Below the pieces are notes generated by a model. That model was not told where the DNA came from. It saw nothing but the letters and a program-made list of their open reading frames with translations, and did not search any database. 64,000 bases of DNA from Medicago truncatula (lineage: Eukaryota > Streptophyta > Magnoliopsida > Fabales > Fabaceae): the NCBI RefSeq assembly GCF_003473485.1, contig NC_053049.1:12896001-12960000 (forward strand), written 5' to 3'. The stretch's first letter is position 1. The number at the start of each line of letters is the position of its first letter. Of the stretch, positions 9,512 to 54,600 are shown piece by piece. The translations under genes and the position numbers were made by a program.

Positions 9512-9834
9512 GCTCGCGAGGCGAGAGCATCTGCTCGCCATGGCGAATACGAGCCAGAATCCCAACTAAGGTTTTTCCAGGTTCAATCTCGTTCTAAATC
9601 CTTTCCTAATCAATAGTAGGCACCTAAAGGTACTCAAAGGCATCTAAGGTTCAACTCAAAAGTCAAAAACTCAGAAAATGACATGCTCTCTGGTCAAGCT
9701 CGCTAGGGCGAGTAGGGTTGCTCGCCGTGGCGAGCTACGACTTGTAACTCGCGAGGCGAAGGGAAAGGGCTCGCGTGGCGAGCGATGAACATTCATCCCT
9801 CGCGAGGCGAGGATCATTGCTCACTATGGCGAGC
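9512..9834. repeat. Palindrome array, GCTCGCC/GGCGAGC word
   Basis: Eight imperfect copies of a GCTCGC-N-GCGAGC palindrome lie at about 9512, 9533, 9698, 9720, 9748, 9769, 9799 and 9819. They come in pairs whose members are about 7-9 nt apart. Individual copies vary in the central bases (for example GCTCGCCATGGCGA and GCTCGCGTGGCGAGC). They lie within the outer LTR element. Confidence 0.8.
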
Positions 9835-10137
9835 GATGAATTTTGGCTCGGACAGAATGCAGTTTTCACACAATTTTCATCAACTAACATGGTTCTAAGC
9901 TTAATTTCACATCCATAATTCATCCTAAACATATTCTAAGGTTATAGGATGGTTTCTACATCAATCTAAGTCAGTTTTACCGTTTGATCATCAATTTTAG
10001 GGATTTGACCTAATTTCAAAACTTTTCTAAATCAATCCTAACTTTGTCAATTAGTCATCAGAACTACAACAATCAATATTACTGAATTATTAGTCTCACC
10101 CTTACCTTGTATTGAAGAAATCAGCCCTCCTAGTGAT

Positions 10138-11633
10138 TGATGAAGGATTTTTACCTCTCATAAAACTATTTACACGTAAGTATAATAGGATCGTGTCCAC
10201 AGGGAGTTGCGTATTTCATAAGCATTTTCACAATATTTGTCGCATTAATTGTTTGGGTATAAATTGTTTGTTTGTGTAAAATTATTTTCCTAATCGACAT
10301 AATAGTAAAACGAGAAGAGATAAGGCTATTTTGCTTGCGGTTAGAGACATCAACCAAGCGTAACAGCTGCAATCTCTCGATCGATTAACGGATTCTAGCT
10401 TTTTAAACTATATTATCACAATCACTCGACAATATCATTCGTGTTCAAATGATATCGTTATTTCTAAGGGATCGTTTAAACATCGATTTCCCAAACATTT
10501 AAACGATCACAAAGTCGTTTGGGTAGTTTAATCGACGATTTCCGAACCGATTAAATTACCCAAAAGCATTAAGTTCTAGATTAAAAGCGATTATCAAATA
10601 TTAACATCCATGTCTAGAGTGATAACTTAAGATAGATTGTTATTCTATTTCTAGATTCAAAAGTATGTGTCCATATCATTTTGAATCTCAATAAAACAAT
10701 AAAAGCAAGAATAACAACAATATTGAATAAATAAGCTAGAACCATATATTAAAAGATCAAAAGATTACATAATAGCTTGTTTGAATACCTCAAAACTACA
10801 AGAGTAGATGTAGCTACATATGTCTATGATAGCTTTGCAAAGGATGAAGAAAGGGTGAAGATTCCATGACAAGATCCATGATGTCTCAACAAATCTTGGC
10901 TTGAATCTACTCCTAACTACCTTGCTTTGTGTTTCTCTCTCTAGAAAAGCCCTAGTCTCTCTCTAAAACCAGAAAAATATGAATAAAAATGTAATAGAAT
11001 ATATTGGAAAGAGAACAGAAAACTATTTATATGGGTTGACTGCGTGCCAGTTCGCTTAAGCGAACATCCAGGAAATCTAATGTTGACCATTGAGGAGCTG
11101 CCACGTGGTCCTTATCTTCTGAAGTTGGATGAACTTCGCTTAAGCGAAACGTAAGCGAACGTGTGAGCGAACTTTCCTGGAGCTCTCTGGAACTGGTTCG
11201 CTTAAGCGAACCATAGGTCGCTTAAGCGAAATGACCTTTTCTTCATGAGCGAACTGGAAGCGTGCTAGTAAGCGAAGAATCCTGGTGCTCTCTGGAACTG
11301 GTTCGCTTAAGCAAACCATAGGTCGCTTAAGCGAACAGAGCTTTGTCATGAGCGAACTGAAGGCGTGCTTGTAAGCGAACAGAACGGTTGCTCTCTGTAA
11401 CTGATTCACTTAAGCGAACAGGGGTTCGCTTAAGCGAACAGACCTTGGTTCAGGAGTTTCCTTCTTTTGGTCCTTGCTTGTCATTTCCTGCATAAATTGG
11501 GTAGAATCAGACATGTAAAGCATAAATGGTAATATTACACTCAAACGGTAGCTTTTCCTTAGATAACTTGCAAAACAAGACACTAATTTGCCTAAGTTAA
11601 CACATGAAATATGTTACTTTTGAGCACTTATCA
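10138..11633. mobile_element. Nested LTR-bounded element (1496 bp)
   Basis: The ends TGATGAAGG and CACTTATCA are flanked by GTGAT at 10133-10137 and 11634-11638. It carries the phrase AGGATCGTGTCCACAGGGAG near its left end, a motif also seen in the LTR-like segment at 51421 (ATCGTTCCCACAAGGACTG). No coding capacity; probably a solo LTR. It is nested inside the element at 8446-12003, so it is the younger of the two. Confidence 0.8.
11048..11440. repeat. Palindrome array, GTTCGCTTAAGCGAAC word
   Basis: GTTCGCTTAAGCGAAC is a perfect 16-bp palindrome. Perfect or near-perfect copies occur about eight times, in pairs separated by about 6 nt (CATAGG). They are embedded in a higher-order repeat of about 104 bp whose units start GCTCTCTGGAACTG near 11182, 11287 and 11390. 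The open reading frame across this array is a repeat artefact. Confidence 0.85.
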
Positions 11634-12008
11634 GTGATTCTCTCTTCTCTTGGCTTTTTTCTCCTTTTTCCAAAGTTTGATCGTACGTGCAATTGTTTTC
11701 TAAAAACTAGGTCTATCTCTTATATACTTCTTCCCAATATCTTATCTTATCTCACTTTCTCCCCCAAAACTATCTAAAATCTCAAAACAGCCCTCAACTA
11801 AATATTTTTATTTTCTTTTCAAATCTTATTTTATTTAACAATAAAATAAGTCTCATAATCTTATCAAATCACCAAAACACATCAAATCTTTCAAATCAAC
11901 TTAAATCATCTTAAATCAACAAAACTCACACATATATTATATAAACATAATATAATTGCCTAAACTCGATTAAATAAATAATTAAACGAAAGTGGGCGTT
12001 ACAGACTA

Positions 12009-13080
12009 CAGTGATAATCTTCAAGATATTTTTTGTTTAGTTTTAGGTCTTGTAGAATGTTTCAATGCATCGGTGGTAGGAGGAGGAGAAGGAGCTGCAG
12101 GTGCAGGAGGAAGAGTAGAAGTCGGAGGGGTAGGCTTAGATGATGGAGTAGAAGATGGTTTAGGCTAATTATTAATCTAAGTTGGTTGATGAAGGATGGA
12201 GTCCTACTCGTCAAGAAGAGTGAGATCATAGGAATCAAAAGATGTTTGGGGACTAGATGAAGTAGAAGAAGATGTAAAAGGGAAGAAGAAAAAAAAAGGA
12301 AACTTACTTTCTTCGAAAATTACATTTCTTGACAAGAAAAAGGAATTGGAATGGATATCATAGGAAAGATATCATTTGGTTCCTTCTCTATATCCAAGAA
12401 AGACATATTTTCTAGCACGAGCGTGGAAGTTAGAACGGTTGTGTTGGATAGTAGAAGCAAAATCTAAGCAACCAAAGACCTGTAGGTGGAGAAGAGTAGG
12501 TGGTTGTTTATGGAGTAATTCGTAAGGGCATTTATTGTGAAAGAGAGGAGAAGGAATACGATTTATAATATGCACTGCATACTGCATAGAAAAATGCCAA
12601 AAAGGAATAGGAATGTTTTATTGAAAGGAAAGGGCTCGGGCAACATTAAGGATTTGTTGATGTATCCGCTCAACAATGCCATTTTGTTGAAGGGTTTCAA
12701 CACAAGATCGATTATGAATAATACCTTTAGCTTGATAAAAGTCAGACATTAAGAATTCAGGCCCATTATCACTTCTTAAACACTTGAGTTTACAGTTGAG
12801 CTGAGTTTCAATGAAAGAAATAAAATTGGCGAGATGTTGTCTAGCCTCATTCTTTGTTTTCATGATAATGATCCATGTACAACGACTAAAATCATCAACT
12901 ACTGTAAGGAAATATTTATGGCCAGAAATAGATGGGATGGCATATGGTCCTCAAATATCAGCATGTAATAAATCAAAAATATTAGAAGTACGAGTGAAAC
13001 TATAGGGAAAAGATAATTTTCTTTGTTTTGCATAATGACATATATCACAAGGAGTCGATATTCTTTAAAATTTACAAAGG
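12009..13080 (-). pseudogene. Ty1/Copia integrase remnant
   Basis: Minus-strand translation shows the integrase core: YAIPSISGHKYFLTVVDDFS, CLRSDNGPEFL and QQNGIVERIHQQ, followed by the downstream RIPSPLFHNKCPYELL, VFGCLDF and ARKYVFLGY segments. The frame is interrupted by stops, and the region next to 12009 is low in recognisable sequence. It is the 5' portion of the same minus-strand element whose reverse transcriptase lies at 7421-8440. The 5' LTR and primer-binding site were not found. Confidence 0.85.
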
Positions 13081-13701
13081 GAAACTGTGATGAAATACAT
13101 TTCTATATTGAATCCAATATGTGTCCTAGTCTAGTGTTCCATATGGAAGATATTCTTTAAACATTAGTTATTGACACTTAACAAAGCACCAGCGCCATTA
13201 ACTTCGGGGGACGAGCCACCCCAGCTAGCCTGGGCACTAGCCCAGGATCAACTTCTACTTTCTTTGTAGCAAGTCCATCTATTGCTAGAACCTCTCTCTT
13301 TTCCTGCGGGTTTACCTGCGAATTTTGCCAAGGATTTTGGTTCCCAGGTAAATGTAATATCTTCGTGGGTAATTGTTTCCTTAGGATTTTAGGATCCGCA
13401 GGAAATGTGCAATTATCTGCAGGAAGGAAGTACCATTATATGGGAAGTCTATAAAATTATCTGCAGGAAATGTGCAATTTTGCGCAGGCTCTATAAAATT
13501 CCTAGCTCCACACTGATTAACTTGGGGTATTTGTATCTTCAGAATAGAAAAAGGGACAAGAATATGTGAGCCATTAGAGGTCTCAAAAATTAAAAATGTG
13601 AGTGCAATTTTTCTTTGAAAAAACTGGATAGAAAAGGAGGTGCGAATAGTAGCATCCGTTCAGCATTTGAACCATAGCCACCCCTATGCAGAAATTAATA
13701 A
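13081..13701. other. Gene-free stretch, possibly decayed Copia gag region
   Basis: No confident protein homology. It lies where the gag portion of the minus-strand Copia element would be. Short internal repeats (TCTGCAGGAAATGTGCAAT-like) occur near 13400-13480. Confidence 0.3.
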
Positions 13702-13710
13702 ATTTGATAA

Positions 13711-14087
13711 GGGTTAATAGTGTTTTACCCCCCTGTAATATAGGTCATTTCCGGTTTTACCCCCTGTAAAATATTTTTTTTGGATTTCGTCCTTGTAATT
13801 TGATGATTTTTGGTTTTGGACCTTCATGAATTTTGACAGTACAAAATCAAAGATATGATAGGGGGTAAACCGAAATTTGCTCAAATTAACAGGGGGGTAA
13901 ACCGAAATTTTCTCAAATTACAAGGGGGTAAACCTAAATTTGCTCAAATTACAGGGAGTGAAATTTTCCATGAAGGTCCAAAACCAAAAAATCTTCAAAT
14001 TACAAGGATGAAATTCAAAAAAAATATTTTACAGGGGGGAAAACCGGAAATGACCTATATTACAGGGGGGTAAAGCACTATTAACCC
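13711..14087. mobile_element. MULE-type MITE (377 bp), family copy 1
   Basis: The two ends form a terminal inverted repeat of about 125 bp beginning GGGTTAATAGTG(T/C)TTTACC. A perfect 9-bp target duplication ATTTGATAA flanks it (13702-13710 and 14088-14096), diagnostic of Mutator-like elements. Interior ORFs are products of the repeat. Related copies lie at 33164-37234 (split by a Helitron) and 58844-58922. Confidence 0.92.
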
Positions 14088-14096
14088 ATTTGATAA

Positions 14097-14459
14097 CTTT
14101 GATGGAACTTGTTCAGCACACTCATGAAAATTTCAACAAGAAATTATAAAAAAACAGAAAAAGTTGAAGTTAGGTATCTCTTTCATCTCATATTAAGGAA
14201 TTAATTCAACATTGGAGGTATAGATTGGTTAGATGTTAGTGTTATGGTGAGATAGTAGAAGTTTGAACTTAATGCCTATTTATAAGGTTTTTTTTTACTC
14301 ATTTGTAATATTCTATTTGATCAATACAAAAAATTTGAAGCTTTTCTCTCATTTCTTTATGGATGATGTTTCATAACATTTAACAACCTGACAAAAATAT
14401 AAAACATACATGTTTTTCTAAATGAAGCTGATATTTAAGACTCATAAATCTGAGGAAGT
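14097..14459. other. Gene-free stretch
   Basis: No coding region or clear repeat seen between the MITE and the duplicated tRNA flank. Confidence 0.4.
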
Positions 14460-14519
14460 TAAAAAAGAAGAAGAAGAAGAAGCTCAGAGGTATATTTATC
14501 ATCCAGTTTTTCAAGATAG
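14460..14519. repeat. Left fragment of duplicated tRNA-Gly 3' flank
   Basis: GAAGCTCAGAGGTATATTTA and the following 40 bp match 18208-18263 downstream of the second tRNA gene. The rest of this flank, with the first tRNA gene, lies beyond the LTR insertion at 17935-18060. This shows that the tRNA unit was duplicated before the LTR inserted. Confidence 0.75.
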
Positions 14520-14524
14520 GTGAT

Positions 14525-17500
14525 TGTTATCGCGATTTTCGGGTGTCAAGTCATTAATTAGGCTTGAACCTTTCAATCTTTGATATTCTCTATTTTTTCT
14601 TGGGAAGGGCAAAATTGAGAAAAACCCTTAGAGTCTAAGTTCGGGGGTCGTTTTCGCTACGGGAAGGTGTTAGGCACCCGGAACGATTATGGTATTCCAT
14701 AAGAACCGTTCTCCTAAGTTTATTCTTACGCTTTATTTTTATTGCCTACTTATTAAAAAAGAAGTTTTATTTGAGTGAAGAATGGGGGAGAGAAGATGAT
14801 TGAGATTTTATTTTACTTGGCTTGGAGGAGTTTTAACTCATTGCCTACGTACCCTTTTAAGGGATCAAAACCAAACGTAGTTCATTCTCGAAAATTGTTT
14901 TTGTTTTTGTCAGTTGATTTTAAGTTTGAAAAGAAAAAGAGGAATTTTGAAGAATGGAGATGAGAGGCCTCAAGGGCGTGAGATTTGGAAAATGTGAGGT
15001 GGAATTAGTTATTTTGCAAAATAAAGTCTAAGTATGATTAAAATTCATTAAGATTTTTACTTAAGAAAATAAAAGGAAAATGAGGAGTTTTGACTCCTAT
15101 TTTGGAAAAAAGGTTTTCAAGTGAGGTTATTCACATTTTTTGGGAAAATGATTTTTGTCTAAGCGTTGTAAGACCTAAGCATACATCTAAACATACATTC
15201 CCTAATCATACATCTAGAATATCCATGTGGGGTGTGTGCATGTGTCGGTGCTTGTGTCGGTGTACATCACTTATAGTGTCTATAGTCCTTTACATCGAGT
15301 CCTAAATACATGCTATGGTCTTGCAAGAATTTAAAAGATGAATTTAAACTAGCCTAAAATATTACATAACCATCTTAACATAGAAATTAAGAAGAAAAGA
15401 AAAAAAAGAGATAATGCCTAAACTATGAGAAATTGAAATGAAAGAGGTGAGATGCTCATGGGATAAATGAAACATGAAATGAAATGGTTAGTGATATAAG
15501 GCATGAAAATGGTAAAAAAAAAAAAAAAAAAAGGTAAACAAAATTGAATAGAATAGCAAAAAAGAAAAGAGCAATGAAATGAAATAAAATGGCAAAATAT
15601 ACCTAGAATTGGTTATAACACTTAGACATGCACATGACCTATAATTCTCTCATCATAGCAATGTTAAAGAGGTTTGATTTTGAGCTATAATGTGAGGATA
15701 ATAAGGACACATACAAGCTAAGCATTATAACACAATTATAGGAATATTTTACACTTTATTTCTTGACACAAAAAAAAAAAGCACATATATATTTATCAAT
15801 TTTAATGATGAAAAAGAAAAAGAAACAATCAAAAAGAAAAAAAAAGAGAGAAAAAAAAATACATCAAGAAATATATAGGAATTTTTAGGAATTTTTCTAA
15901 ACACAAAAATGTCAAAAAAGGTGTAAAAACAGTATTTTAAAAATAAAAAAAAAAAGAAAAAAAAACAGTTAAAAAAAAGAAATAAAAAAAGACTCAGCAT
16001 GGTTTAATCTGGACCGTTGGATGAATCCAGAGGTCCGGATTTAAACCTCAAGATCTCATCACAACCATTAGATCAAAATGATCCAAATCAAAGAGTTTTA
16101 AAGAAACAGGAACACAAAAGACCTTAAATGACTACACACACATGAATCCACCCAAGAGCATCCTGGATCGTTGGATCTGAGATCCAACGGTCTAGCCTTG
16201 AGGTCACGTGAACGTCAAAGGCCACTCATACATACAATCAGGAAAAGAGATGCAAAGCAGCCCTCAGATCTTGGAACGATCCGGATCTGAGGGCTCACAA
16301 CGTGAGGGAGCATCCAATAGCATGCACGCGCGCGCGTAGGAAAGCAAGGTAATATAAAAGGGAATTCAACAAAAAAAAACACAAAATCCACAAAAAACTT
16401 CTCTCCTCTTTGAATTCTAGAGAGAGAGAGTCTGAACTCTCTCTAGAATCCAGTTGTCTTCTCCGGCGAGCCATATTTTTCCGGCGAGGTGGCGGCGCCG
16501 CCGCCGGAAAAAAAAAAATTTGCTCCGATTCAAAAATTTTTTACATTTTCAAACATCCTTTTTTCTCCCATGCATGAATCTGAGCTTAGTTTTTTGAAAA
16601 AGAATTTCAATCGGAGTAGATCTGAGTTTGAAGTTGCGGTTTTGAATGAAGCTTTTTCAAGTTTTTTTCTGCTTTTTCGGTTAGAAACTTCTAAAATTCT
16701 ACAGATATACACTTGATTCGCCTTTGTTGATGTTCTTGAGAAAGAAAGATGAAGTTTGAGTTTTACCTGTGATTTTCGGTTGGAGATTTCGGATGAGTTC
16801 TTCGGAAAACTTCGATTTGATTCTGTTTGTGGATTTTTGCTGTGTGAATCCGAAAATAAATCGGTTCTTCTTCTTCACCGGTTCGACTTTTCTTTCCCTC
16901 TTCTTTTTCCTCAAAAAAAAACGCCTCTGCGATCGTGCTTGAGTTTGCCGCTTTCAGTGGTGAATTCGTACTTGAATTGTAGAGCAAAAACGATTCAGTG
17001 ATGAAGATTCTTTGATGAATCTCTGAGAATCGGAGAAAAACTGATGAATCTGTTGAATTTGAGTTCTGGAAAATTTTAGGGTTTTTTAGTTTGTTCTTGG
17101 TGATTTTTCTGTTTTGATCTAACAGAAAAGAGAGAGAAAATTGAAATCTGTTTTTGGTGATGTGTCAATGATTGTGTGGATCTGTGCAGAATAATGCTAT
17201 TTATAGACTGCCATGTGTATTCCTGGACCAATGGGGGAATGCCATCTGTTTTTGGACTTAGGGACTCTTCTGCAAAAAAGAAAAGTGAAAGGACTGGACT
17301 GCAATAAAAAAAAGGACTGAAATGAAATTTTTAAATGTTTTGGACTAAAATGCAAATTAAAATAAAATTGGATTACAATTGGTAATTTGAAAAAACGTAA
17401 AGTGAAACAAAAAATAAAATCAACAAAAGGACTAAAACGAACCAATTACTGACATGAGGTATTTTAAAATACCTCCCTGTCGAAATTTTGACAGGAAAAG

Positions 17501-17934
17501 ACCAAAATGCCCCTAGGGACTAAACTAACTCAAATTGACTCAAATGCAATTTTTGAAATGATTTTAAACAGAGATTCAACAATGATTTGTACAGACAGGT
17601 TTAAAAGACTCAGAGGCAAACACAGGGACTAAAATGGGTTCCACTGCAGGAAATGACCAAAATACCCTTTTGTATGATTTTTTTTGAAATAAAACGCAAG
17701 AAAAGTAATGCGATGTTTCTGAGAGTTCTTAAATGACTTATAATGCAAGAAAAGACACTTTGAATAGTTTTATGCAAGAAAATTGAGCTTGAACGTGCTT
17801 TGAGACAGAGACAGTAAAATATGCAGATGAAAAGAGAGTAAAGATTCAGAGTAAAACAACAGCGAATTGACAAATATCAGTGTTAGAAAAGAAATTTGAA
17901 CGAGTATTTTTAGGTCCAAAATCAGGGTATAACA
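14525..17934 (-). mobile_element. Solo LTR, Ogre/Tat-like Ty3-gypsy (3.4 kb)
   Basis: On the plus strand the element begins TGTTATCGCGATTTTCGG and ends CAGGGTATAACA, with the 5-bp target duplication GTGAT at 14520-14524 and 17935-17939. On the minus strand it starts TGTTATACCCTGATTTTGG and near its 3' end carries AAGGGTACGTAGGCAATGAG and GGGTGCCTAACACC, phrases I associate with Tat/Ogre LTRs; this suggests minus orientation. No gag-pol is present, so it is a single long LTR. A TATA-like AATATAAAAGG at about 16351 on the plus strand, followed by pyrimidine-rich sequence, could be an opposite-strand promoter, so orientation is not certain. Confidence 0.75.
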
Positions 17935-17984
17935 GTGATGTTACCCAACACCACATGCATTATCATCATAGCTCATTCAGGGGT

Positions 17985-18055
17985 TGCACCAGCCAGGAAT
18001 TGAACCCGGGTCTGTACCATGGCAGGGTACTATTCTACCACTAGACCACTGGTGC
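17985..18055 (-). tRNA. tRNA-Gly (GCC), copy 1
   Basis: 71 nt on the minus strand starting GCACCAGTGGTCTAGTGGTA, with anticodon loop CTGCCAT (GCC), a paired GTACC/GGTAC anticodon stem, box B GGTTCAATTCC, an acceptor stem closed by GGCTGGTGC and discriminator A. It differs from copy 2 at loop position 38 (T), the T-loop purine (A) and one T-stem base, leaving a G-U pair; all are tolerable. Its original 3' flank is cut by the LTR about 50 bp downstream, so the first TTTT on the gene strand now comes from the LTR end (17918-17921). Confidence 0.9.
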
Positions 18056-18191
18056 TTTGTTGTTACAATCTATGAGAACATAGTATATCTTGTTTTAGTA
18101 CACCAGCTCTTCAATGTCGTTTCAATATGTTGCACCTCTTTAATTGATTGAATAAGGTTCCCTAGCACAAAAAAGGATGAAAAGAAATAAT

Positions 18192-18383
18192 GAAAAAAAA
18201 AAAAAAAAAAAGAAGGAGCTCAGGGGTATATATGTCATCCAGTATTTCAGGATAAGTGATGTTACCTAACATCACAGATGTCATCATCATAGCTCCATCT
18301 GAAGTTGCACCAGCCGGGAATCGAACCCGGGTCTGTACCGTGGCAGGGTACTATTCTACCACTAGACCACTGGTGCTTTGTTG
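18192..18383. repeat. Tandem duplicate of the tRNA-Gly unit
   Basis: This segment matches 14460-14524 plus 17935-18062. It covers a poly(A) tract, a conserved flank containing GTGATGTTACC(T/C)AACA, the tRNA gene and about 6 bp beyond its 5' end. The identity drops sharply after TTTGTTG upstream of each tRNA. Confidence 0.8.
18306..18376 (-). tRNA. tRNA-Gly (GCC), copy 2
   Basis: 71 nt on the minus strand with anticodon loop CTGCCAC (GCC), box A TGGTCTAGTGGTA, canonical box B GGTTCGATTCC, full acceptor stem pairing GCACCAG/CTGGTGC and discriminator A. This matches the standard plant tRNA-Gly(GCC). The nearest T-run on the gene strand lies about 95 nt downstream (plus-strand poly(A) at 18193-18211). 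Confidence 0.95.
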
Positions 18384-18774
18384 GTCAATTCTAATAATAT
18401 ACTATATGTATCATCATCATATTATTCTTCTTTTTCAATGTTGTGTATTCTTCCTTTGTTGCTTAATATACATTGTAAAATATCATTTTGCAATTCATTC
18501 AGTAAATTGAGGAATAAAAATTCTTTTGGTCCTTGTTATCTTGTCATCAAGTTTTTTTAGGAGAAAAATGATTGTGTCACTTGTGACAGTAAGTAAAAAG
18601 TGTTATGGTGTTTGACATATTGAAATTGTGTATGGTGTTTTACATATATCGACGCAACATCAACACATGTTACAATCAAATATTTTATTTTGTTAAGAGT
18701 CAATTTTATTTTAGTATATGGGATTGTGCTTCATAATTTGTCGATCAAAATTCAAAGTAATCGTACTACTATTA
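18384..18774. other. Gene-free stretch upstream of tRNA copy 2
   Basis: AT-rich, with no coding region or recognisable element. Confidence 0.4.
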
Positions 18775-18860
18775 GGTTTTAGTGCACCGGATGGTGGGAC
18801 CCCTTCCCGGACCCTACATATGCAGGGGTTTTAATGTACCGGGTTGTCGTTTTTTAGTAC
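18775..18860 (+). mobile_element. SINE fragment (Au-like 3' part)
   Basis: The phrases GTGGGACCCCTTCCCGGACC, ATATGCAGGGGTTTTA and GTACCGGGTTGTCGTTTTTT resemble the 3' half of the angiosperm Au SINE, ending in a T-run. The tRNA-related 5' part is missing or decayed. Confidence 0.5.
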
Positions 18861-19110
18861 TACTATGAGGTTTTACTGATTAGAGACTACACAATCTAAG
18901 CATTGATTGATACATTGATTACAAGATTGATTAAATATATAATCTAAACATTGATTACACAAATTACCAAGGTTTTGCATACCACAGTTTTACATTCTAA
19001 GCTACTTGTTTCATTCAGACAATGAAACAGCAACATTGATAAGAACAAAAGTGAATAAGAAAGTGCTTAATGATACAAAAACTAAACAGTTCCAACATGG
19101 AATTTTTCCA

Positions 19111-20796
19111 TTATTTTCTGCTAAACAAACTTCTCAATTTCCCTCTTTCCAATCTTTCACGCAACTTTTTAGCTCCTGGAATCTCTATGTCAATAAGCTT
19201 CTTCAAATACCCTATTGCTCCATATGATATCATCAACCGCTTACATTTCTTACAAGAAGAAAGTGATCCAAGGCAACAAACTGCGTATTTTTTCGCAGTG
19301 TTTTGTGGACTAGGATCAAGCAATTGAACCAAATTCGGCACGCTTTTATCATCCTTTTTAACCTCTCGCCGATTCTGAGACAAAATCATCAAACTGGCAA
19401 TTGCTTGTGCTGCAAGTTCTCTAGCAGTGTTTGCTTTAGCCTCAAGCATGTTGATCAATAGAGGAATGCAACCAACTTCACCTAACATTTTCTTCATCTC
19501 AATTGAGCTACAAATCCTGCATATAACTGATGCAGCGCATTGTTTCGCACCTAACGATCCTGACTTCAAAACATGAACTAAACAAGGAAGCAATCCAAGA
19601 GAAACCAGAGTTTCCTCGGAAACCGATGCAACGAGATTCCTCAATGCACCAACAGCGGATTCTTGAGGAAGTGGACCATCAAGATAAGCCAGAATGCTCC
19701 GAACGCCGCCTTCTGATATAACAGACCTTCTCAGATTCTCATTGCTAGCAGTCAGATTCTGCAAACACTCAGCAGCATACTCTTTAGTTCCTAACAACAT
19801 TCCATTGTTAAGAAGATTGATCATAACCTTAACAACACCTTCTTCATCCAAAACCTGTCTCACTTCCGGAACAGCCGAAATGTTCTTCAAAGTACAAGCA
19901 GCTGCAGATTGTGAAACAGAATCACCAATCTGACAAAGCTCGACTAACGGACGAACCCCTCCATGTCCGACGATTGCACGAGTTGTGTCTTCCGTCATAG
20001 ACAACCTTTGAAGAGATACAATAGCCTTTTCTTTACTAACAGCACTACCTGATTCAACAAGCCTTATAAGTGGTGGCAAAACACCTTCAGCAACTAACCA
20101 ACTTTCGCAGCTACCACCGGATTCAACGAGAGAGCATATAATACTAACTGTTTTCTCCCTTATCCTTGTTGATGTTGCTGTAAGCAACTGAACCAAAGCA
20201 ACAACATTGCTCCTGCAAAAAACAGCCAAAACATTCTTCTCATCTTCTCTCATAATATCATGAAGTCTATCCAAAGCTTTGTGTTTCGATTCCAAATGAC
20301 CGATTTGAAGGCGCGCGAGTAGCTCCTTTATATTGCAATGTGTTTCAATATCTGATTCTGTTATAGAACCAGAAACATTGAATTGCAAAGTAACTTCACC
20401 AAGTACACCAGTTTTTGTTAACAAGCTACAATCCTTTAAATTCAAATCAAGCTTACCAATTAATGCATCAAGATCACTTTGCATTCTTAGTTTTCCTTCA
20501 TACTTTTCTTTCAAACATAACTCAGCTAATTCAATACCTTCTCTTAGTGTCTTTGACACAGCCTGCAATTGTTCCTTGCAAAGTGCATTCTTTGAAAAAC
20601 AAGGGTGGCTTGATAAATCTGATAGCTTTGATGGAACTTGTTCCAATTTTGAAATGATCATTTTCCACCTACCTTGAAATCCTTTTACCTCTCTTGCTTT
20701 TGTAAGAGCAATAGGAACAAGTTCTTGTGAGTTCAACAACCATTCTTCTGTTGAGCATGTATCCACTGTGACAGCAACTGTACTATCTTCCACCAT
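19111..20796 (-). CDS. Armadillo-repeat protein, VAC8-like
   Basis: Single coding exon of 561 aa on the minus strand. Residues about 17-140 form a helical N-terminal domain (EEWLLNSQELVPIALTKARE and LSSHPCFSKNALCKEQLQ) that recalls the U-box N-terminal domain of plant PUB-ARM proteins, but no U-box follows. From about 165 to 520 there are tandem ARM repeats (for example GVLPPLIRLVESG, GGVRPLVELCQIGD and GVVKVMINLLNNG). The tail is basic (KKLRERLERGKLRSLFSRK). It resembles the uncharacterised Arabidopsis ARM protein At2g45720 in length and layout; ARM arrays are protein-binding scaffolds and no enzymatic function is indicated. An upstream in-frame Met at 20901 lies inside the inferred 5'UTR intron, upstream of the acceptor ttctacag at 20849. 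The Met at 20796, in context CCATGG, is therefore preferred. Confidence 0.92.
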   Translation of the reverse strand: MVEDSTVAVTVDTCSTEEWLLNSQELVPIALTKAREVKGFQGRWKMIISKLEQVPSKLSDLSSHPCFSKNALCKEQLQAVSKTLREGIELAELCLKEKYEGKLRMQSDLDALIGKLDLNLKDCSLLTKTGVLGEVTLQFNVSGSITESDIETHCNIKELLARLQIGHLESKHKALDRLHDIMREDEKNVLAVFCRSNVVALVQLLTATSTRIREKTVSIICSLVESGGSCESWLVAEGVLPPLIRLVESGSAVSKEKAIVSLQRLSMTEDTTRAIVGHGGVRPLVELCQIGDSVSQSAAACTLKNISAVPEVRQVLDEEGVVKVMINLLNNGMLLGTKEYAAECLQNLTASNENLRRSVISEGGVRSILAYLDGPLPQESAVGALRNLVASVSEETLVSLGLLPCLVHVLKSGSLGAKQCAASVICRICSSIEMKKMLGEVGCIPLLINMLEAKANTARELAAQAIASLMILSQNRREVKKDDKSVPNLVQLLDPSPQNTAKKYAVCCLGSLSSCKKCKRLMISYGAIGYLKKLIDIEIPGAKKLRERLERGKLRSLFSRK

Positions 20797-22560
20797 GGTT
20801 TGAAAATTTGTAGGAGTGGTGTTGTAGAAATGATGTTGATCACCAAAGCTGTAGAACAGAAGAAAAGCAAGCTTAAAGAAATGACCAAACAAAGATACCA
20901 ATTGTAGAAAGACAATGATATTAATTTATTTGTTAGTATATAGAAAGTTAAGAAGGTTGTGGAGCAGTAGTTATCATCAAATCCTTATATTATAAATCAA
21001 GACTCCAATAGAAAAATTCTTATACATATAAATATAAAGAGTAAAAAATATTTTTAAACCTTATAATTATCTAAACTTTTGTTGGTTCTTACAAATTATA
21101 AACTTGCATGCTTTTAGTCCTGAAATCCCTCTCTAGGTGCTAAAAGAGTGCAGTTTTACAATTTGTAAATAGATACAAGATCTATAAAATAATTAGGGAT
21201 TAAAACTTGGGTTTATTCGCTGATGTTGGCTTGAGACCTTAGAGTGTGCTTTTCTTAATGTCTGAAGTTTGATACCCCTGAGACAATTTTAGTAAGTTAG
21301 TTCATAGAAAGTTTTGTTCTGGTTTTAAATTGGACCCCGCAAGTAGACGGAGGGATCAGACTCTCAGATTATTCGGTCCTTAGACTGAATACCGAGTTTA
21401 AATAACTAAAAAATATCAAAAGAGTAGGCCAACAAAAATAACTTATGAGAATCTCATAATCACACAAGAAGCTTGTTTATTAGTTCAGATCATGACTTGA
21501 CTATAAAATGTGATGTACCTAAAGATGCCACCCCATGAGTATTTCTCTTACTTTAGCAAGTGATCATTTAATACCCTTTGGAAAATTCCAAAACACATTA
21601 TTAAATTTTGATATGAAAGATAAAGTATGGTTTATGAGAATGGCTGTTGATGAAAATGAAGGAATTGGCGTGTAACTACTAACAATAACAATACATTTCA
21701 ATTAAGTAGCCGTCGGTGGATATTATTATTTTTTATACAAATCTAAATCATTAGGCTTAAAAATATCCACCTCACATACATTAACTTGTACAAAATGTAA
21801 TAATGGTTACTTTATAAGGGTGTTTTGGTAATTGAAGCAAATCATGGTTGGTGGAAAGAGTGTCAAAGTTAATGTAAAAAAAGTTTCGACATGATATCAA
21901 AGGAGAGTTCTTAGATGTGATTTTACATCTTTGTCCTCATAAAAAAGGAGAAGCCTTGCTTTGAAGGGAAGACAAGTAAGTCTCTATCAACAAGTTGTAT
22001 TCAATACAAGTATATATCTCCAATCAATAATCAATTATTACGGTGGAATTGAACCTCTCATATTAGTACGTTCATGTGTCACATATCGAGTTTAAAAAAA
22101 TAAATCAATTATTGTAATAACCTATCACAAAAATTATTATTATTACTGTTAAATTCAGTAGAGATCACAAAAATTATTATTATTACTGTAAAATTCAGTA
22201 GAGATGAGCATGAAAATAAAAACAACCATGAGAAATTAAGATAATTAATTTGAATAAATTTACCTCTTACAAACTTGACTTGCTGAAAACAACTGATCCT
22301 TTCACTGTTTCTGTAAGCAAAAAATAAAACTGAAAGAAATTAGAACTCCACAAACATAAGCTACAAAAAAATAGCTCAATTTCACAAAATAATTCAAAAA
22401 TACAGAAAAGAAAAACATAATTTATTTTTCCTGTAAAAAGTGATGAAATCAAAGCAAAAAAGAAAAAAAAAATTACAAAATGAAGAAAAAGAACCAACCT
22501 TTAAGAATGAGTAAGTAAGAAAACAAGCTTATGTAGCTTAATCTTCAAACTTCAAACTCA
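20797..22560 (-). other. 5'UTR exons and introns of the ARM gene
   Basis: On the minus strand an acceptor tttcttctgttctacag ends at 20849, with UTR exon sequence from 20848. A donor AAGAG|GTAAAT lies at 22264/22263. A further acceptor tttttgcttacag at about 22313 and a donor AAG|GTTGGT at 22499/22498 suggest a 49-nt middle exon (22312-22264). The large intron would be 1415 bp. These splice calls are inferred from consensus only. Confidence 0.5.
22123..22204. repeat. 40-bp tandem duplication
   Basis: Two units of TATCACAAAAATTATTATTA plus ATTCAGTAGAGA are repeated head to tail with one base difference. They lie in the inferred 5'UTR intron of the ARM gene. Confidence 0.8.
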
Positions 22561-23429: not shown

Positions 23430-23540
23430 TCTCTATGTGACTTAAATCACATTCATAGCATCAGCGTAATTTAAGTTACATTGAATCGGTGTGAATTAAT
23501 TCACGTTTAGTACATATCAACGTGACTTAAGTCATGTAGT
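23430..23540. repeat. Palindrome repeat, GTGACTTAAGTCAC word (copy 1)
   Basis: GTGACTTAAATCAC (23437), GTGAATTAATTCAC (23491) and GTGACTTAAGTCAT (23522), plus the weaker CGTAATTTAAGTTAC (23465), vary one palindromic word. The lead-in GAAAGTATCTCT also precedes the related block at 38560, so both belong to one dispersed family. Confidence 0.65.
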
Positions 23541-37302: not shown

Positions 37303-38482
37303 TGAGTAAAAAAGCAATTACCCCTGAAATTGTAAGTTTCGTCAATTATCTTTCTGAATTTAACAAAACTTCAATTACCCCTTAAAATTGCACAACGTTA
37401 ATCAATTTATCTCATCCGTCAAATTCATATGTAAGTCAACATGACGTTTTGCAAATACCCACCCTGAAGTTTTGCATTTATGTGCAAAATGTCCCTTGAA
37501 AATTTATATTTTTTTCTTATCTTAAAAGTGACTGCATTATCACTGAATTGTAGAGCATATTAGCTAAGCTTCTACGATATACAACCATATATGTTCCCTG
37601 AAACGATCAAACATTAACCATATATTAGAGCTTAATGATATGAACGTCAGCATAACAAAGTACAACCACACATGTCAGATGGAAAACTAATGCATAACAT
37701 ACATAATAAAGCACATAAATGACATATGATTGACATAACCAAGAAGTCAAAATATATCGCTTTGCTATTGCTCATTTTAACCACACCAAAAATTTCCACT
37801 TCCTTTATATTGTGAGCACTGCACACTCTACACCAACACACTTCTCTCACTTTCAAGAAAAAATACATATACTTGTTACTTCTCTCACTTTATAAAAGAT
37901 CTTGAAGGAAACATGGTATTCTTCCCCTGATAGGATTCAAAGAAATGGTAATAATATTATATTATGTATATTTCACTATGTTTTATTAAGAGAATAAAAA
38001 AAAAAAAACATGATAGCCACCATCCTTTTGATCTCTAATGGGGTGAAGGACAACTTGAAAAAGAAAAAACAACATCTGATGTTGGAACAAAGAAATGTTT
38101 TTATGTTTGTTTTGTAAATATTCTTGAGTTTTGAACATTATTGTAGGGTTTACCAAATATTGTCAATTTGTTTTACCATACTGCCAATATATTGTTGTAT
38201 ACCGACAAAACTTAGCTAATATGCTCCACAATTCACTGATAATGCAGTCATTTTTAAGGATAAGAAAAAAATATAAATTTTCAAGTTCAGGATGCATTTT
38301 ACACATAAGTGCAAAACTTCAAGGGTGTATTTGCAAAACGTCATGTTGACCAACAGAAGAATTTGACGGATGGGGTAAATTGATTAACGTTGTGCAATTT
38401 CAGGGGGTAATTGAAGTTTTGTTAATTTTAGGGCGGTAATTGATGAAACTTACAATTTCGGGGGTAGTTGCCTATTTAGTCA
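37303..38482. mobile_element. Foldback MULE-like element (1180 bp)
   Basis: Left TGAGTAAAAAAGCAATTACC and right (reverse complement TGACTAAATAGGCAACTACC) begin inverted repeats of about 190 bp, including TTGCACAACGTTAATCAATT and CATGACGTTTTGCAAATAC in both arms. A perfect 10-bp direct repeat AAAAAATATA flanks it (37293-37302 and 38483-38492). The 0.8-kb interior has no coding capacity that I recognise. Confidence 0.82.
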
Positions 38483-38559: not shown

Positions 38560-38660
38560 GAAAGTATCTCTGCGCGACTTAAGTCACGCAAAGTACTTTC
38601 CGTGTGAGTTAACTCACGCTCCTTTGGCCGTTGGCGTGACTTAACTCACGCTCTTTTCTG
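38560..38660. repeat. Palindrome repeat, GTGACTTAAGTCAC word (copy 2)
   Basis: GCGACTTAAGTCACGC (about 38575), GTGAGTTAACTCAC (38604) and GCGTGACTTAACTCACGC (38634) are variants of one palindrome, preceded by GAAAGTATCTCTG as in the related block at 23430. Confidence 0.7.
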
Positions 38661-39930: not shown

Positions 39931-39957
39931 AAATAAAGACACTACATAATAATGACG

Positions 39958-43107: not shown

Positions 43108-44025
43108 TTACTTCTTGCTACCATAATAAGGAGAGGCATAACCATTACAAGGGGATCCACAACTATTATATGGAGAAGCATAACCACTATAAGGTGAACC
43201 ACAATCATAAGGAGAACTAGAGAAAGTTGGAGGCACAAGAACAGAAGAAGATACCTTAAACCTCTTACTACTTGAACCTTCACAAATATCAGAACTATCA
43301 TCATCAATCCACCCCATGAGTTGTTCCAAAAAACCTTGATCACCAACATTAATATTAGCATTATTGTTAATCTCTCCTATATCAGATCCATCAGAATCTA
43401 ACCCTAGATTCTGAAATCCAAACCATTCAGAGCTACAATCAGAAACCCTAGAAGGGTCACCATCATTAGAGGGAACAATGATACTAGGCTGCACAACTTT
43501 CTCTATGTTCTTCATATCCAAAGCAGATATTTGATTGTAATTATGATTCCTACGGTTGAATATGCTAGCAAAAGTAAAATGATCACTCACTCTACTCTTT
43601 GAAAACTTGTTGTTATTATGATCACTTGTTCTTGCCATAATACTTTGAAGATTCTTGCTCAATTTTGCTTTCAATGAAGCAAAAGTTAAACTGTTTTTTG
43701 CTTCATTTGTTTGTGGTGATGATACTAATCCTTGATCATCACTGCATGGTGTTGTACCGTCTGTTGATACTGCTAGGGCGAAGTTGGTTCGAGCATTTTC
43801 TCCGCGTAAAGCTCGAGCAGCTTCGTCGTAAGCTCGAGCAGCTTCTTCTGGTGTGTCATAGGTTCCAAGCCATAATCTTACATGTTGAGATGAGTCTTTG
43901 ATCTCAGCTACCCATCTACCTGATGGCCTTTGTCTCACACCAATGAATCTTCTCATGTTCGGTTTTTTTGATTTGGTTATGTTGTTTGTAGCAGAAGCAT
44001 ATTTTGTAGCTTCAGTTCCAGACAT
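43108..44025 (-). CDS. AP2/ERF transcription factor
   Basis: Single exon, 305 aa, minus strand. A single AP2/ERF DNA-binding domain spans about residues 25-84 ([52 protein letters not shown]), preceded by a basic KSKKPNMRR segment that may serve in nuclear import. Key AP2 residues are present ([26 protein letters not shown] and RTNF). The [16 protein letters not shown] form is that of the ERF group holding RAP2.11 and the legume ERN factors; the exact orthologue is uncertain. ERFs bind GCC-box or related DNA. The centre is acidic ([24 protein letters not shown]), a possible activation region. The C-terminus has an unusual SPY/GYASPY low-complexity repeat. The A-rich sequence just before ATG is a usual plant leader. 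Confidence 0.93.
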
Positions 44026-44137
44026 AATTTTTTTTTTGCTTAGATTGGCTAAAAAAATTGTTGAGTTTGGATTTGAGTGTTGTTTTGGAAGTGGAGTTTA
44101 TATTATTGGAATGATAAATATTGGTGATATGTTGTAG

Positions 44138-48560: not shown

Positions 48561-48576
48561 AGTATTGGGTATTTGA

Positions 48577-49336
48577 AGTTGGTTTTGTTTGCGCTACCGC
48601 TCTTGGTGTTGAATATCTTGAGAATTTGATTTATGGATTCTTGTGGGCCGATCGGTTTTGCTTCGAGACCAAGAACCAGTGTTTAGTTTTAAGTTTTTGG
48701 ATGGTTATGGTGTTTTCTCCGGTGTGCTGTGAGTTTAGGGTGTCTTGGTGAGTTGCTTTGGAGTTTGGTGGGTCGATCGTTTTTTATTCGAGATCGAAAG
48801 TCAGTTTCTAGACTCAAGTTTTTGGACTTTTGTTTGGTGTATTCTTCGGCAGACCGGGATTAATTGGTGGTGAAAATTGAATGAGTGTTGGAATAAGAGG
48901 TTTACGGGGCGTTGATTTGGGCTCAGTTGCGGTAGAGAATGTGGGGGTGTTGTTAGAGTTTTTGTTCGGTTTGGTGGTTTTTTAGGAGGGGTTTTCGTGC
49001 AACTTGCGGGAGTAAGGTGTTTGGGACTTGTTTTTGTGGTCATTCACGATGGAGGTTGAGGCTTTGACTCACAATTAGGTTACGTTTTTATGTGAAGGTT
49101 TAACTTTATTTTTGGTGTTGTCTTTGATTTGGTGGTTGAGTTTTTGTATTGGATTTTGGTGGTAGCATTTGATTGTGTGCTATTTTTATTGGTGGTTTGA
49201 TATCAAGGGTGTATGAGTTTTCTTTTGGGTGTTCCGCCTACATACGACGCCCTTTTTATTGTTGTTCTGTCTTATTGGTCCCTGTTCGTCGTGTGCAGAA
49301 ACCTAATTATTAATAAATTTTGCCATTCAAAAAACA
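48577..49336 (+). mobile_element. 5'-truncated L1 LINE, 3' end only
   Basis: The right end, with GTCGTGTGCAGAAACCTAAT, TTAATAAATTTTGCC and a short A-rich tail, resembles the 3'UTR end of plant L1 elements. A perfect 16-bp target duplication AGTATTGGGTATTTGA flanks it (48561-48576 and 49337-49352). Only about 760 bp remains, with no reverse transcriptase. Confidence 0.8.
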
Positions 49337-49352
49337 AGTATTGGGTATTTGA

Positions 49353-50716: not shown

Positions 50717-51404
50717 TAACTATCAAATCAATCCCTACATTATATTAAAAACCCATCAAATAAGTCCTTGAATTATTTAATCAGATATCAATTTGATCCT
50801 TGAAGAATATATATCAGTAGCAACAATACTATCTTCTTCAGTACCTTGAGTAGCACCAACACTGTCCTCTTGATTTCCTTGAGTAGCACGGACTGTTACA
50901 TCCATTCCTTGAGTACCATCAAAATTTTCCTATTAATTATATACTCTATTTTGCACACAAGCAACCAAACAGTCTATTACCACATTTATTTCCTCAGCAG
51001 TTAGTATGTCAACCTCCATAACTTTGAATGGAAGAAAGACAAGATTGATGGAGAAGGTTCAGTCCATGGTTAAGGTTAAGGAAAGTGGTAATGATGAGGT
51101 TTGGAGGGAAATGTTGATGGACAAAGTTGATTGTATGGGAAGTGAGCTTAGGTTGATTAAGTTTTTAATAGTCATAATTTGCTTGTTTGAGTTTTTTAAC
51201 ATGCTATTGTATTGTTCTAGGTGTGTAGAGTTGTAATGAAAAGAGGATGAAGATGAATGAAATGTAGTCTTTCAGTAATAATTTTACCATCATATTAGTC
51301 CCTAAATTAATTGTCTAACTATCAAATCGATCCCTACATTATATTAAAAAGCCATCAAATAAGTACTTGAATTATATAAACATAAATCAATTTGATCCTT
51401 GAAG
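50717..51404. repeat. Two 90-bp direct repeats flanking a small ORF
   Basis: The block from CTAACTATCAAATCAATCCC to AATTTGATCCTTGAAG at 50717-50803 recurs at 51314-51404 with several differences. The 510 bp between them contain the 76-codon ORF at 51006-51236. This looks like an element with internal or terminal direct repeats; the type is unknown. Confidence 0.6.
51006..51236 (+). CDS. Small hypothetical protein with one membrane segment
   Basis: 76 codons from ATG at 51006. The N-terminal half is basic and hydrophilic (NGRKTRLMEKVQSMVKVKES), then LRLIKFLIVIICLFEFF forms a likely membrane-spanning or coiled hydrophobic helix. It recalls the C-termini of plant GRF-zinc-finger transposon-linked proteins, but this is only an impression. 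It lies between 90-bp direct repeats, so it is probably element-borne. No function is assigned. Confidence 0.3.
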   Translation: MSTSITLNGRKTRLMEKVQSMVKVKESGNDEVWREMLMDKVDCMGSELRLIKFLIVIICLFEFFNMLLYCSRCVEL

Positions 51405-51420
51405 TAGCCTCTGCAATGTC

Positions 51421-51965
51421 TGATAGACAATTGACAAGTGTACCAAAAACTATCGAAGTTGTAAAATAATATCGTTCCCACAAGGACTGTTTTTAATTTC
51501 AATAATTCAAAGGTGTTATTATTCAGAATGTATAAATGTTATTTTGATTTGTCACTAGGCAGTTGATTGGTTTGATTGCATAAAAGTAACGACAGAAAAT
51601 AAAGATTGGTTGTAAAGAATGAGAGAGAGATGAAATCAGGTCTTTCGAATCATCTATATTCCCCTAATTGGTATACTGCACCTATTCTTTTGGAATGGTT
51701 TTCTAGTTCCACGATAGTTAACAAAATAGTCCTAATCAATCCCTTGAGTTAGGACCCTCTTCTTAGATTACAATCCCTAATTCCTTAGTTGATCTAATAT
51801 TCTTTGAAGGTTTTATGCACTTTAACATAATATCACTAACAAACGATTATCCATTCCTAGACTAACCATGTTTATTAGAACAATTCAATTAGGTCTAAGT
51901 TAAAAGCTATGGTCAGTAGCCATTCGTTCTCACTAAATTATGTTTATATTTGATCAAGATATAAA
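51421..51965 (+). mobile_element. LTR-like segment, left part
   Basis: Begins TGATAGACAATTGACAAGTG and carries ATATCGTTCCCACAAGGACT, the same kind of phrase as near the left end of the LTR element at 10138. It appears to continue after the F-box fragment at about 52470. No target duplication or right end was found. Confidence 0.45.
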
Positions 51966-52470
51966 AAGCATTAAAAGACACCATATCACCTGTCAAGCCC
52001 AACCAATGGCAGAATTCATTCAAGTTCACTCCAGAACTATCTCGCAAAGAAACAGGAATATTAAGGCCATCGAGTTTCCTCCAAGAGTTACTTCTAAGGC
52101 TGTATATCTCTCAGAAGAGGTCATACATCTCTACTACTGCCTCAAGGAAAGTGTCATTATAATCCATCTCCCAAAATGGGTTATCCTTCTATGGCGCATA
52201 AGCCCAATTTCCATCGAACTCTAAGGGATATTGAACCTTCTGAATCACCTTATAATCATCTCCCACATGGTCGTACCCAAATCCCAGAAGACGTAAATTA
52301 ATCTCAATATTATCGTAGGCTTGAAGGCTATGAGGAATGATATTAAAATCCCCTGTAGAAGGGTTCCACAATACAATTGTTATGTACATGTCAATACCTT
52401 TGTAGAGACAAAGAGTGCCATTAATACAATTGTTATGTACATGTCAATACCTTTGTAGAGACAAACTCTA
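51966..52470 (-). pseudogene. F-box protein fragment (F-box-associated domain)
   Basis: The minus strand encodes a recognisable F-box-associated domain: YITIVLWNPSTGDFNIIPHS, RLLGFGYDHVGDDYKVIQKV, then after an in-frame TAG, DNPFWEMDYNDTFLEA, then a TGA, then SLRSNSWRKLDGLNIPVSL and LNEFCHWLGLTGDMVSFN. Two in-frame stops and a 53-bp frameshifting tandem duplication (about 52370-52475) show it is dead. The F-box itself is absent. It sits between two pieces of LTR-like sequence, suggesting capture or a nested insertion. Confidence 0.75.
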
Positions 52471-52636
52471 TACAAACCCTAGTTTTGTTGTTGCCTTTCT
52501 AAACCCTTGTTTCAGCCCCCTCTATCTCTCAAAGTTTGCTCTGATACAAGGTCTATATATATAGTAAGAGTATCGCTTAAAATTTGGAACAAATTTGCAC
52601 TCAAAAATATGTTTCTGTTTTTCGCTGCCAGCACAC

Positions 52637-52740
52637 CATCGTGCCACGATGCGATCCCATCGTGCCACGATTTTTCCAGTACATTGCCTCAAAACTGAAA
52701 CCTCCAATCGTGCCACGTTGCCTTGCCATCGTGCCACGAT
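52637..52740. repeat. Palindrome array, CATCGTGCCACGATG word
   Basis: Four copies of (C)ATCGTGCCACGAT lie at 52637, 52658, 52706 and 52727, in two pairs with members about 6-7 nt apart. The word is an odd-length palindrome (arms ATCGTG/CACGAT around C). It is within LTR-like sequence. Confidence 0.85.
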
Positions 52741-52989
52741 TCCTGCAGATCCTGATTTTAAGTTAACTCTCACATACATGATCAAACACCTCAACAAAGC
52801 ATATACACCACTCACATAAGATCACAGTAGCATATGCATATAGCATCATAGGACAATTCCGATTAATTCCAAAATTCACCTAAGTTCGTCTCACTTTATC
52901 ATTTTTTCAAAGAATTCCATTTTCAAAGCAAAACCAAGTTAAAGTTCATGAATACCATCTAAAACCATTTTATAAATCATAGTTACAGT

Positions 52990-54600
52990 AAGCAATCTTA
53001 ACCCTACCCTTTTCTATAATGAAAAAAAGTTTCAGAAAATTATGCATTCTTGAACATTTTTTAAAAAGTTTGATTCAATTCACAAAACCAATCTCAATTC
53101 AATCCATTTGATGTTCCAGCAAGAATATTAATCAAAACAGCAAAAGAGCATGCTTAAAAGATTGCATATGACCTATACATGTTGGCCCCCAAGCACCTGA
53201 ACGTGAAACAACATGAATTGTTGTTCATGTATAGGTCTGGCTTGTTGCGCCTAGGCGTTGGCTTGTTGCGCCCATGCGCAGGCTCCCAGCAACTGTCGAC
53301 GCTGCAAAAAGCACGTTTTGATGTGTTCCAGCCACGGGTTTTCGTCAATTTTTCCCCAAAGTGCTTATTTTGATCCCCCATTCACCCAAAGTGATTAAAA
53401 GGTTGTCCCAAGGCTCAAACACATCAAATAAGCTCTTTTCACAACACTCAAAACAACTTATGCAACAATTGAATTGATTTTAACTTAAAACACAAAAGTT
53501 CCAACAATAACATTTCAATTCATTCCAATTCAACACAACAATAACAACAACTTAAACTTAACATCACCCAATTTAAGAATTCACATCACCAACAACACCC
53601 AACAACATTCAAGGCATAATTTCATGAGTTACAACTTTATTTTCACCATTTTAAGCAAAAATCGCAAAAGGTTCATATTATCATACTTTGACCATGGAAA
53701 ATCAACAATCAATAGTTACAACTTTATTTTCACCATTTTAAGCAAAAATCGCAAAAGGTTCATATTATCATACTTTGACCATGGAAAATCAACAACAACA
53801 ACATACTTAGCATCAATTTAACATGCCCAATCTTATTATCAAGGAAGGAGCACGAAAATTAACATTAAAATTCACAAAAGTCACAATTCACAAATAAACA
53901 CTTATTCAACTAATTGAAAATATGAAGGTTTAGCTTAATTGATGATAGGAATCTATCCCCCTTACCTCTAGCTTCAAAGATCCTATCTATGACTTCAATT
54001 TAGCTCCTCTAACCTCAAGTCTCTAGCCTCTTTTTCTCTTCAAGATTTTCTTGTCTCTAACCCTTTTCTCTATTCTTCTCCTATTTCTCTCTCTACCCCT
54101 CTCTCAAAATATTTTGTGAAGTGAATGAATGAATGGAAAACCTAACTGGGTTTGGTTTCTAATTGTCATAATGGGCTTAACATTTTTACCATCTAATTCT
54201 CCAAAAGTTACTACTTACTTAAACCCTTTTATGTCATTTTGCTCTTGGCTTATAAAAAAAAAATCCAGAAATTTTAAAAATCTTCTTAATTTTGAAAAAA
54301 ATCCGAATATTTTTTTGATATTTTCTAAAATTTGAAAAAAAATCTAATGTTTTTTTTTTCTGATTTTATTAATTTTAGAAAAATAATCTTAAATTTTTTC
54401 GATTTTAAAAATTCTTAGAATAAAATCTGAATATTTTTCTGATTTTCTAAATTTTGAAAAAAAATCTTAATGTTTTTTCTGATTTTTATAAAAGAAAATC
54501 TTAATGTTTTTCGATTTTTAAAATATTTGGAAAATAATCTGAATATTTCTATGATTTTTTTTCTAATTTTATAAATTTTAAAACAAAAATCTTAATTTTC
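52990..54600. repeat. LTR-like non-coding sequence
   Basis: It has a paired palindrome block at 53245-53282 (TTGCGCCTAGGCG and TTGCGCCCATGCGCA), then CT-rich leader-like sequence (54000-54110), like the layout of the element at 8446-12003. At 54260-54600 it runs into a degenerate AT tandem repeat of units like TTTTGAAAAAAAATCTTAAT. Boundaries are not resolved. Confidence 0.4.
53628..53801. repeat. 87-bp tandem duplication
   Basis: Two units, identical over about 79 bp (GTTACAACTTTATTTTCACC to GACCATGGAAAATCAACAA), repeat with an 87-bp period. The ORF across them is a result of the duplication. Confidence 0.9.

Follow-up and report, generated by a model that had tools for sequence, protein, structure and literature searches.

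What does it mean when transposable elements of different types carry arrays of short palindromes that share one architecture and differ in their words? The question is raised by six blocks in a 64,000-nucleotide stretch of the Medicago truncatula genome (contig NC_053049.1, positions 12,896,001 to 12,960,000 of the forward strand), which is referred to here as the window and from whose first letter all positions are counted. The answer tentatively favored below is that the blocks consist of dyad-symmetric cis-regulatory sites, arrayed within several types of transposable element and similar to the palindromes, termed RMs, in the long terminal repeats (LTRs) of Sireviruses. The blocks, two of which probably lie in elements resembling miniature inverted-repeat transposable elements (MITEs), are the following.

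9511..9834, minus strand: block A, seven TCGC-N3/4-GCGA cores and one mutated core, mostly paired 21-22 bp apart
11050..11439, minus strand: block B, tandem units of ~103 bp that hold palindromes of the TTCGCTTAAGCGAA type, paired at a distance of 20 bp, as well as isolated GCGAA half-sites
52637..52740, minus strand: block C, two pairs of ATCGTGGCACGAT palindromes with a paired distance of 21 bp
53239..53284, unstranded: block D, the weakest, a 21-bp repeat present in 2.2 copies whose words resemble TGCGC-N4-GCGCA
23435..23535, unstranded: block E, four palindromes of the GTGANTTAANTCAC type, host element probably MITE-like
38571..38651, unstranded: block F, three palindromes of the GTGANTTAANTCAC type, host element probably MITE-like

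The palindromes are genuine, and their excess over chance is weak for block D and strong for the others. Pairs of the same palindromic word at most 250 nt apart number 21 in the window and 0 in 60 dinucleotide shuffles; the scan tested in this way held 17 palindromes, two of which (23056 and 23106) fall outside the reported blocks. Genome-wide counts, which refer to the 430 Mb of searchable assembly around the window and take the reversed pattern of each palindrome core as control, gave 22,523 versus 265 sites for the TCGC-N4-GCGA core (TCGCNNNNGCGA), 1127 versus 0 for exact GTTCGCTTAAGCGAAC, 2349 versus 36 for GTGANTTAANTCAC, and 4587 versus 76 for TCGTGNCACGA, with a weak enrichment (85 versus 25) for the block D core TGCGC-N4-GCGCA (TGCGCNNNNGCGCA). 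The shuffle test and the excess over reversed controls reject a chance origin. Palindromes in blocks A, B, and C are 12-16 bp long and arranged in arrays. In a separate observation, GTTCGCTTAAGCGAAC was met in two viral contigs, with one such palindrome in each near the match, and this was taken as chance.

Blocks A, B, and C lie in LTRs, two of them nested and flanked by target site duplications (TSDs).

8446..12003, minus strand: solo LTR A of the Ty3/gypsy family, with TSD and TG..CA ends, measuring ~2.06 kb once the LTR B insertion is subtracted
8441-8445 and 12004-12008: TSD of LTR A, GACTA
11721-11727, minus strand: TATA-like TATATAA in LTR A
10138..11633, minus strand: solo LTR B, inserted in LTR A, with ends TGATAAG..CTTCATCA in the sense direction
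10133-10137 and 11634-11638: TSD of LTR B, GTGAT, as read from the sequence
52457..52774, minus strand: partial LTR C, matched at 92-97% by 39 other places

The sense of LTR A is taken to be the minus strand, as its TATA-like box and relatives suggest. These relatives comprise 39 other places at 91-97% identity (among 40 scored of 3561 candidates), and because pieces of Retrotrans_gag, RT_RNaseH, and Integrase_H2C2 (Pfam) adjoin the LTR of one of them, the family is assigned to Ty3/gypsy; the same internal piece has a primer-site-like stretch, TTGGTATCAGAGC. The LTR C family is placed in copia because the region inside one relative holds Retrotran_gag_2, a copia gag. Copies of LTR B occur with different flanks, and Pfam scans beside them found no LTR-element polymerase; the one basis for a superfamily is a primer-site-like stretch in copy L034, which we take to be of Tat/Ogre/Athila type. 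Pieces of a LINE-like endonuclease and RVT_1 (L136-L137) lie ~2-6 kb downstream of that copy. Adjoining LTR A is an RVT_2 match at 7681-8214 (29.6 bits, just below the Pfam cut-off of 31.6), so that the nest at 7681-12008 consists of a copia-like pol remnant and the two solo LTRs, B within A, each with its TSD intact.

The hosts of blocks E and F are likely MITE-like rather than LTRs, as judged from their left ends, which match an end of L119, a short relative of 159 bp, at 23 and 25 of 38 bases, a score that none of 200 shuffles equaled; their right ends showed no resemblance to L119 ends beyond shuffles. L119 and a second short relative, L117 (166 bp), show matching ends. Among 14 other elements compared with L119, E and F included, nine beat all 200 shuffles at one end at least, and L117 was the only one to do so at both. 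An inverted repeat of ~298 bp (86%; 37303-37592 and 38187-38482), perhaps a fold-back element, stops ~75 bp before the block F stretch.

The common architecture with differing words that the first-pass annotation had described is upheld and reaches gypsy, copia, and MITE-like elements. Other parts of that description needed narrowing. It had put its first four blocks in LTR-like DNA, which holds for A and B (solo LTRs with TSDs) and C (a partial LTR), the LTR setting of D being putative. It had given each element a different word; the words do differ, but those of A (CTCGC..GCGAG) and B (TTCGC..GCGAA) differ symmetrically around a shared core, TCGC..GCGA, and for each of them flanks of at least two kinds are found in this genome. 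By position, 20 of 23 B-word loci on one chromosome form one flank group and three group with LTR B. In a sample of 50 listed sites from one contig (the C1 sample, conditioned on the TCGC..GCGA core, with four lone sites left out), the LTR-like loci L081, L082, and L091 have, judged by eye, A-type words immediately upstream of a TATA-like box, an arrangement that the B words show in LTR B. LTR A is weakly linked to the other B-word loci, sharing stretches of only 24-37 bp with five of ten compared and nothing with the remaining five, and it is on this link that the orientation of those loci rests. A splice-acceptor-like TTTRTGCAGGA-like stretch was seen by eye at the upstream array edge in L081, L084, and LTR B (near 11490).

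Position and spacing are among the features from which a regulatory role is argued. Block B, with six exact TCGCTTAAGCGA cores besides mutated cores and lone half-sites, immediately precedes, in the sense direction, the TATA-like box of 11023-11034 (minus strand); block C, with three exact ATCGTGCCACGAT copies and one broken copy, precedes the TATA-like run of 52554-52563 (minus strand) by ~75 bp. Inspection by eye placed arrays immediately upstream of such a box in LTR B, LTR C, L081, L082, L091, and L130. Neighboring sites keep a regular distance in the LTR blocks (adjacent center-to-center gaps of at most 60 bp unless stated, identical segments counted once): 57 of 65 gaps are 20-22 bp at B loci, 44 of 77 are 21-22 bp at A loci, 42 of 64 are 21-22.5 bp in the C1 sample, and 22 of 44 are 20-21 bp at the other B-word loci. 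Paired sites of block C are 21 bp apart in the three copies compared, and of 18 gaps no longer than 200 bp between listed C-word sites (33 of 50 listed positions), 3 have this length. A spacing of 20-22 bp is about two helical turns. The paired layout claimed by the annotation is seen in A (mostly), B, and C (two pairs), and E and F fall outside this spacing.

These arrangements could be accounted for by a half-site, such as GCGAG or GCGAA, that is maintained largely alone, as would be expected for the site of a symmetric DNA-binding dimer. Sites would increase in number by local tandem duplication, pairs about two helical turns apart would place two dimers on one face of the DNA, and arrays directly upstream of a TATA-like box, as in B and C, might act as enhancers or silencers.

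The stems also change less than their surroundings, with substitutions at 27/1344 stem versus 162/6001 other block positions in A, 21/1556 versus 283/5852 in B, and 9/683 versus 170/2359 in C. Since CpG-rich stems are expected to decay faster, this suggests constraint on the source copies. The same figures bear on a reading that we consider improbable, namely that the blocks are ordinary minisatellites that contain palindromes by accident and hitchhike in successful transposon lineages. Block B is indeed a tandem repeat, and words are nearly invariant in the sampled A and C copies. A minisatellite origin does not sit well with stems that change less than their surroundings, with one architecture across different element types, or with the return of both TCGC words beside LTR flanks of differing kinds. 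The annotation had equated invariant palindromes with uncompensated arms with minisatellites; blocks A-C come close to that description, but the lower stem substitution and regular spacing argue for something more.

The annotation had further supposed that pairing is conserved, a change in one arm being matched in the other. For blocks A-C this is mostly unsupported. Relative to the window copies, 40 one-arm stem changes (A 25/560, B 8/328, and C 7/323 cells) were counted against three paired two-arm changes (A 0, B 2, C 1) and no unpaired ones; the samples, also used for the substitution counts above, were 20 of 39 listed A loci, 16 of 33 B loci including the window copy L027, and 18 of 39 listed C loci. 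Counting from the column majority gave 49 one-arm, three paired two-arm, and one unpaired two-arm cells. Pooled one-arm changes yielded G.U in 17 cases versus A.C in 24, with no excess of G.U. At pair 5 of the C1 sample the two halves varied independently (31 of 41 identical versus 31.4 expected with 4-nt centers, 34 of 37 versus 32.3 with 3-nt centers; identical segments were taken once in such counts). Sites with a C-to-T change in the core (CTTGCNNNNGCRAG) number 569 and 615 genome-wide, with controls of 60 and 61; among 84 listed, 68 are one-arm and 16 two-arm, or 55 and 2 when the centers are word-like. Arm change in the LTR families is mostly one-sided, with a small two-arm excess that CpG decay may explain, whereas E and F show modest arm covariation, so that matched arms may apply there. 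The first 50 listed E/F sites had 31 identical halves versus 26.9 expected (p 0.067).

Several results weigh against binding sites kept half by half. At equal independent rates 0.28, 0.11, and 0.06 two-arm changes would be expected in A, B, and C, a total of 0.45 versus the three observed; all three are G-C to A-T, and CpG hot spots may be their source. Genome-wide, a scaled estimate of ~24 two-arm sites, resting on two sites, exceeds the 5-11 expected (2-4.5x), an expectation that assumes a CTCGCNNNNGCGAG total of 10,000-20,000. Identical halves are in excess at pair 9 of the C1 sample (18 versus 12.7, p 0.03), at pairs 5 and 6 of the B loci (75 versus 69.0 and 69 versus 59.5), and at pair 9 of the A copies (22 versus 6.8), deviations at outer pairs that kinship and word mixing can cause. 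For 55 E/F sites from 15 elements, identical halves were in excess at several pairs, among them pair 9 (42 versus 30.0) and pair 3 (33 versus 23.9), and mean covariation z was 1.86 for partner columns versus 0.54 off-partner. Block A lies ~0.4-0.7 kb downstream of the TATA-like box of LTR A in the sense of the element, rather than upstream, and a single dimer may not tolerate centers of both 3 and 4 nt, which are both present. Both A and the C1 sample have many gaps of 26-30 bp; E/F gaps run from 19 to 52 bp and more (18 of 50 listed sites, those near another site), with site centers 25-32 bp apart in blocks E and F themselves. Gap and substitution counts are non-independent, the copies being related and the ~103-bp B unit tandem, and the constraint comparison uses related rows and stems found by motif, part of the C excess being misalignment.

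Some of these points favor a role for the palindromes as hairpins of the element transcript, formed in RNA or in single-strand DNA and serving in packaging, in dimerization, or as Dicer substrates, with structure kept while sequence drifts. Such a role would fit the two-arm excess and the palindrome centers of block A, which vary while the stems stay. The predicted RNA folds of blocks A, B, C, and F are better than those of shuffled sequence (z of -4.89, -6.54, -4.91, and -7.44), as is expected of any palindrome. The accessible text of PMC10760457, citing a 2016 study, reports for maize Sireviruses palindrome clusters in the LTR cis-region with strong predicted structure and an excess of small RNAs; it also cites evidence for a cis-regulatory role of such clusters. 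The preponderance of one-arm changes, the lack of a G.U excess, and the independence of pair 5 nonetheless make hairpins quite unlikely as the explanation.

We also regard as unlikely a purely mutational process in which palindromes are perfected and spread without function, through gene conversion among units together with switches of template at quasi-palindromes while DNA is reverse-transcribed or repaired. The tandem array of block B, the two-arm excess, and the E/F covariation are in keeping with it, as is the presence in L126 and L127 of the symmetric variants ATGAGTTAACTCAT and GTTAGTTAACTAAC alongside words of the GTGAGTTAACTCAC type. Such a process leaves the placement by the TATA-like box unexplained and is at odds with the one-arm changes that persist in A, B, and C. 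In the TCGC sample, moreover, covariation is hardly raised (partner z of 1.22 versus a background of 0.80), and the three two-arm changes, being G-C to A-T throughout, look as two CpG deaminations would. Because two-arm changes exceed the equal-rate expectation, both of these alternatives were raised slightly, and our confidence in dyad-symmetric cis-regulatory arrays was lowered from an even chance to slightly less than even. The arrays, their excess, their placement and spacing, and the predominance of one-arm mutation are observed; protein binding, a regulatory function, and selection on source copies are what we infer from these sequence patterns.

The window also holds other repeats and gene pieces. 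A 116-bp unit at 5724-6074 is present in three tandem copies (94%) with GGGCAC..GTGCCC palindromes, and an 87-bp unit at 53627-53795 is duplicated in tandem with a 100% match and so is probably recent. Gene pieces correspond to an ARM-repeat/DUF7032 protein (19111-20925) and an AP2-domain protein (43108-44097).

Known systems offer partial parallels to cis-regulatory arrays of this kind. The U3 boxes of Tnt1 and the heat-shock elements of ONSEN are symmetric or repeated factor sites in the LTR U3 with known inducing factors; the blocks share with them symmetric or repeated sites in an LTR, inducing factors being known for Tnt1 and ONSEN only. Subterminal repeats of CACTA/En-Spm elements are short, transposase-bound, in direct and inverted order, and differ in word between families. 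The repeats of E and F are similarly short; no transposase was identified for E and F, and CACTA ends were not searched for.

The closest parallel is with the Sirevirus RMs (Bousios et al. 2010, PMC2829016), which the accessible text describes as element-specific palindromes in many copies that cluster shortly upstream of the TATA box, are of unproven function, are termed Sirevirus-specific, and, with Tnd-1 as the sole exception among the 13 listed, have a CGG-CCG core. RM clusters are also characterized by forming a CpG island, and their elements by multiple PPTs and linker copies before env. A palindrome repeated within an LTR is found likewise in A and B (TSD-bearing LTRs) and in C (a partial LTR), and clustering upstream of a TATA-like box is seen by sequence in B and C and not in A. 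In contrast to RMs, the words here (TCGC..GCGA, ATCGTGGCACGAT, and GTGANTTAANTCAC) are without CGG..CCG, and the host is Ty3/gypsy for A, copia by gag alone for C, and probably MITE-like for E and F. RMs number at least eight per element; counted in single LTRs, A has seven and one mutated, B six exact besides mutated ones, and C four. As in the maize clusters, palindromic motifs in the LTR go with a strong predicted fold, small RNAs being reported for the maize system only. We tentatively read the blocks as palindrome arrays of the known RM kind in other element types. Literature searches by topic and sequence word, whose coverage left out most subscription papers, found no report of such arrays in legume gypsy or MITE elements; by sequence word no plant transposon paper appeared, and by topic none for Tnt1 boxes. 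In the accessible text of a Medicago LTR landscape paper (PMC2533021) the search terms had no match, and that of PMC11963269 treats tandem repeats outside the LTR.

It is possible, though doubtful on present evidence, that phased palindrome arrays are a general and repeatedly evolved cis-module of plant transposons (gypsy, copia, and MITE-like), which would answer to a common class of host factor and whose words would switch in parallel between a few variants in unrelated lineages. Sites of this kind number in the tens of thousands in a single genome and lie in gypsy and copia elements and probably in MITE-like ones, which would make the arrays a general feature of transposon control regions and not a Sirevirus-specific one. 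Whether a common factor binds them can be tested directly through the spacing and half-site rules, which also bear on why elements retain structures able to trigger silencing.

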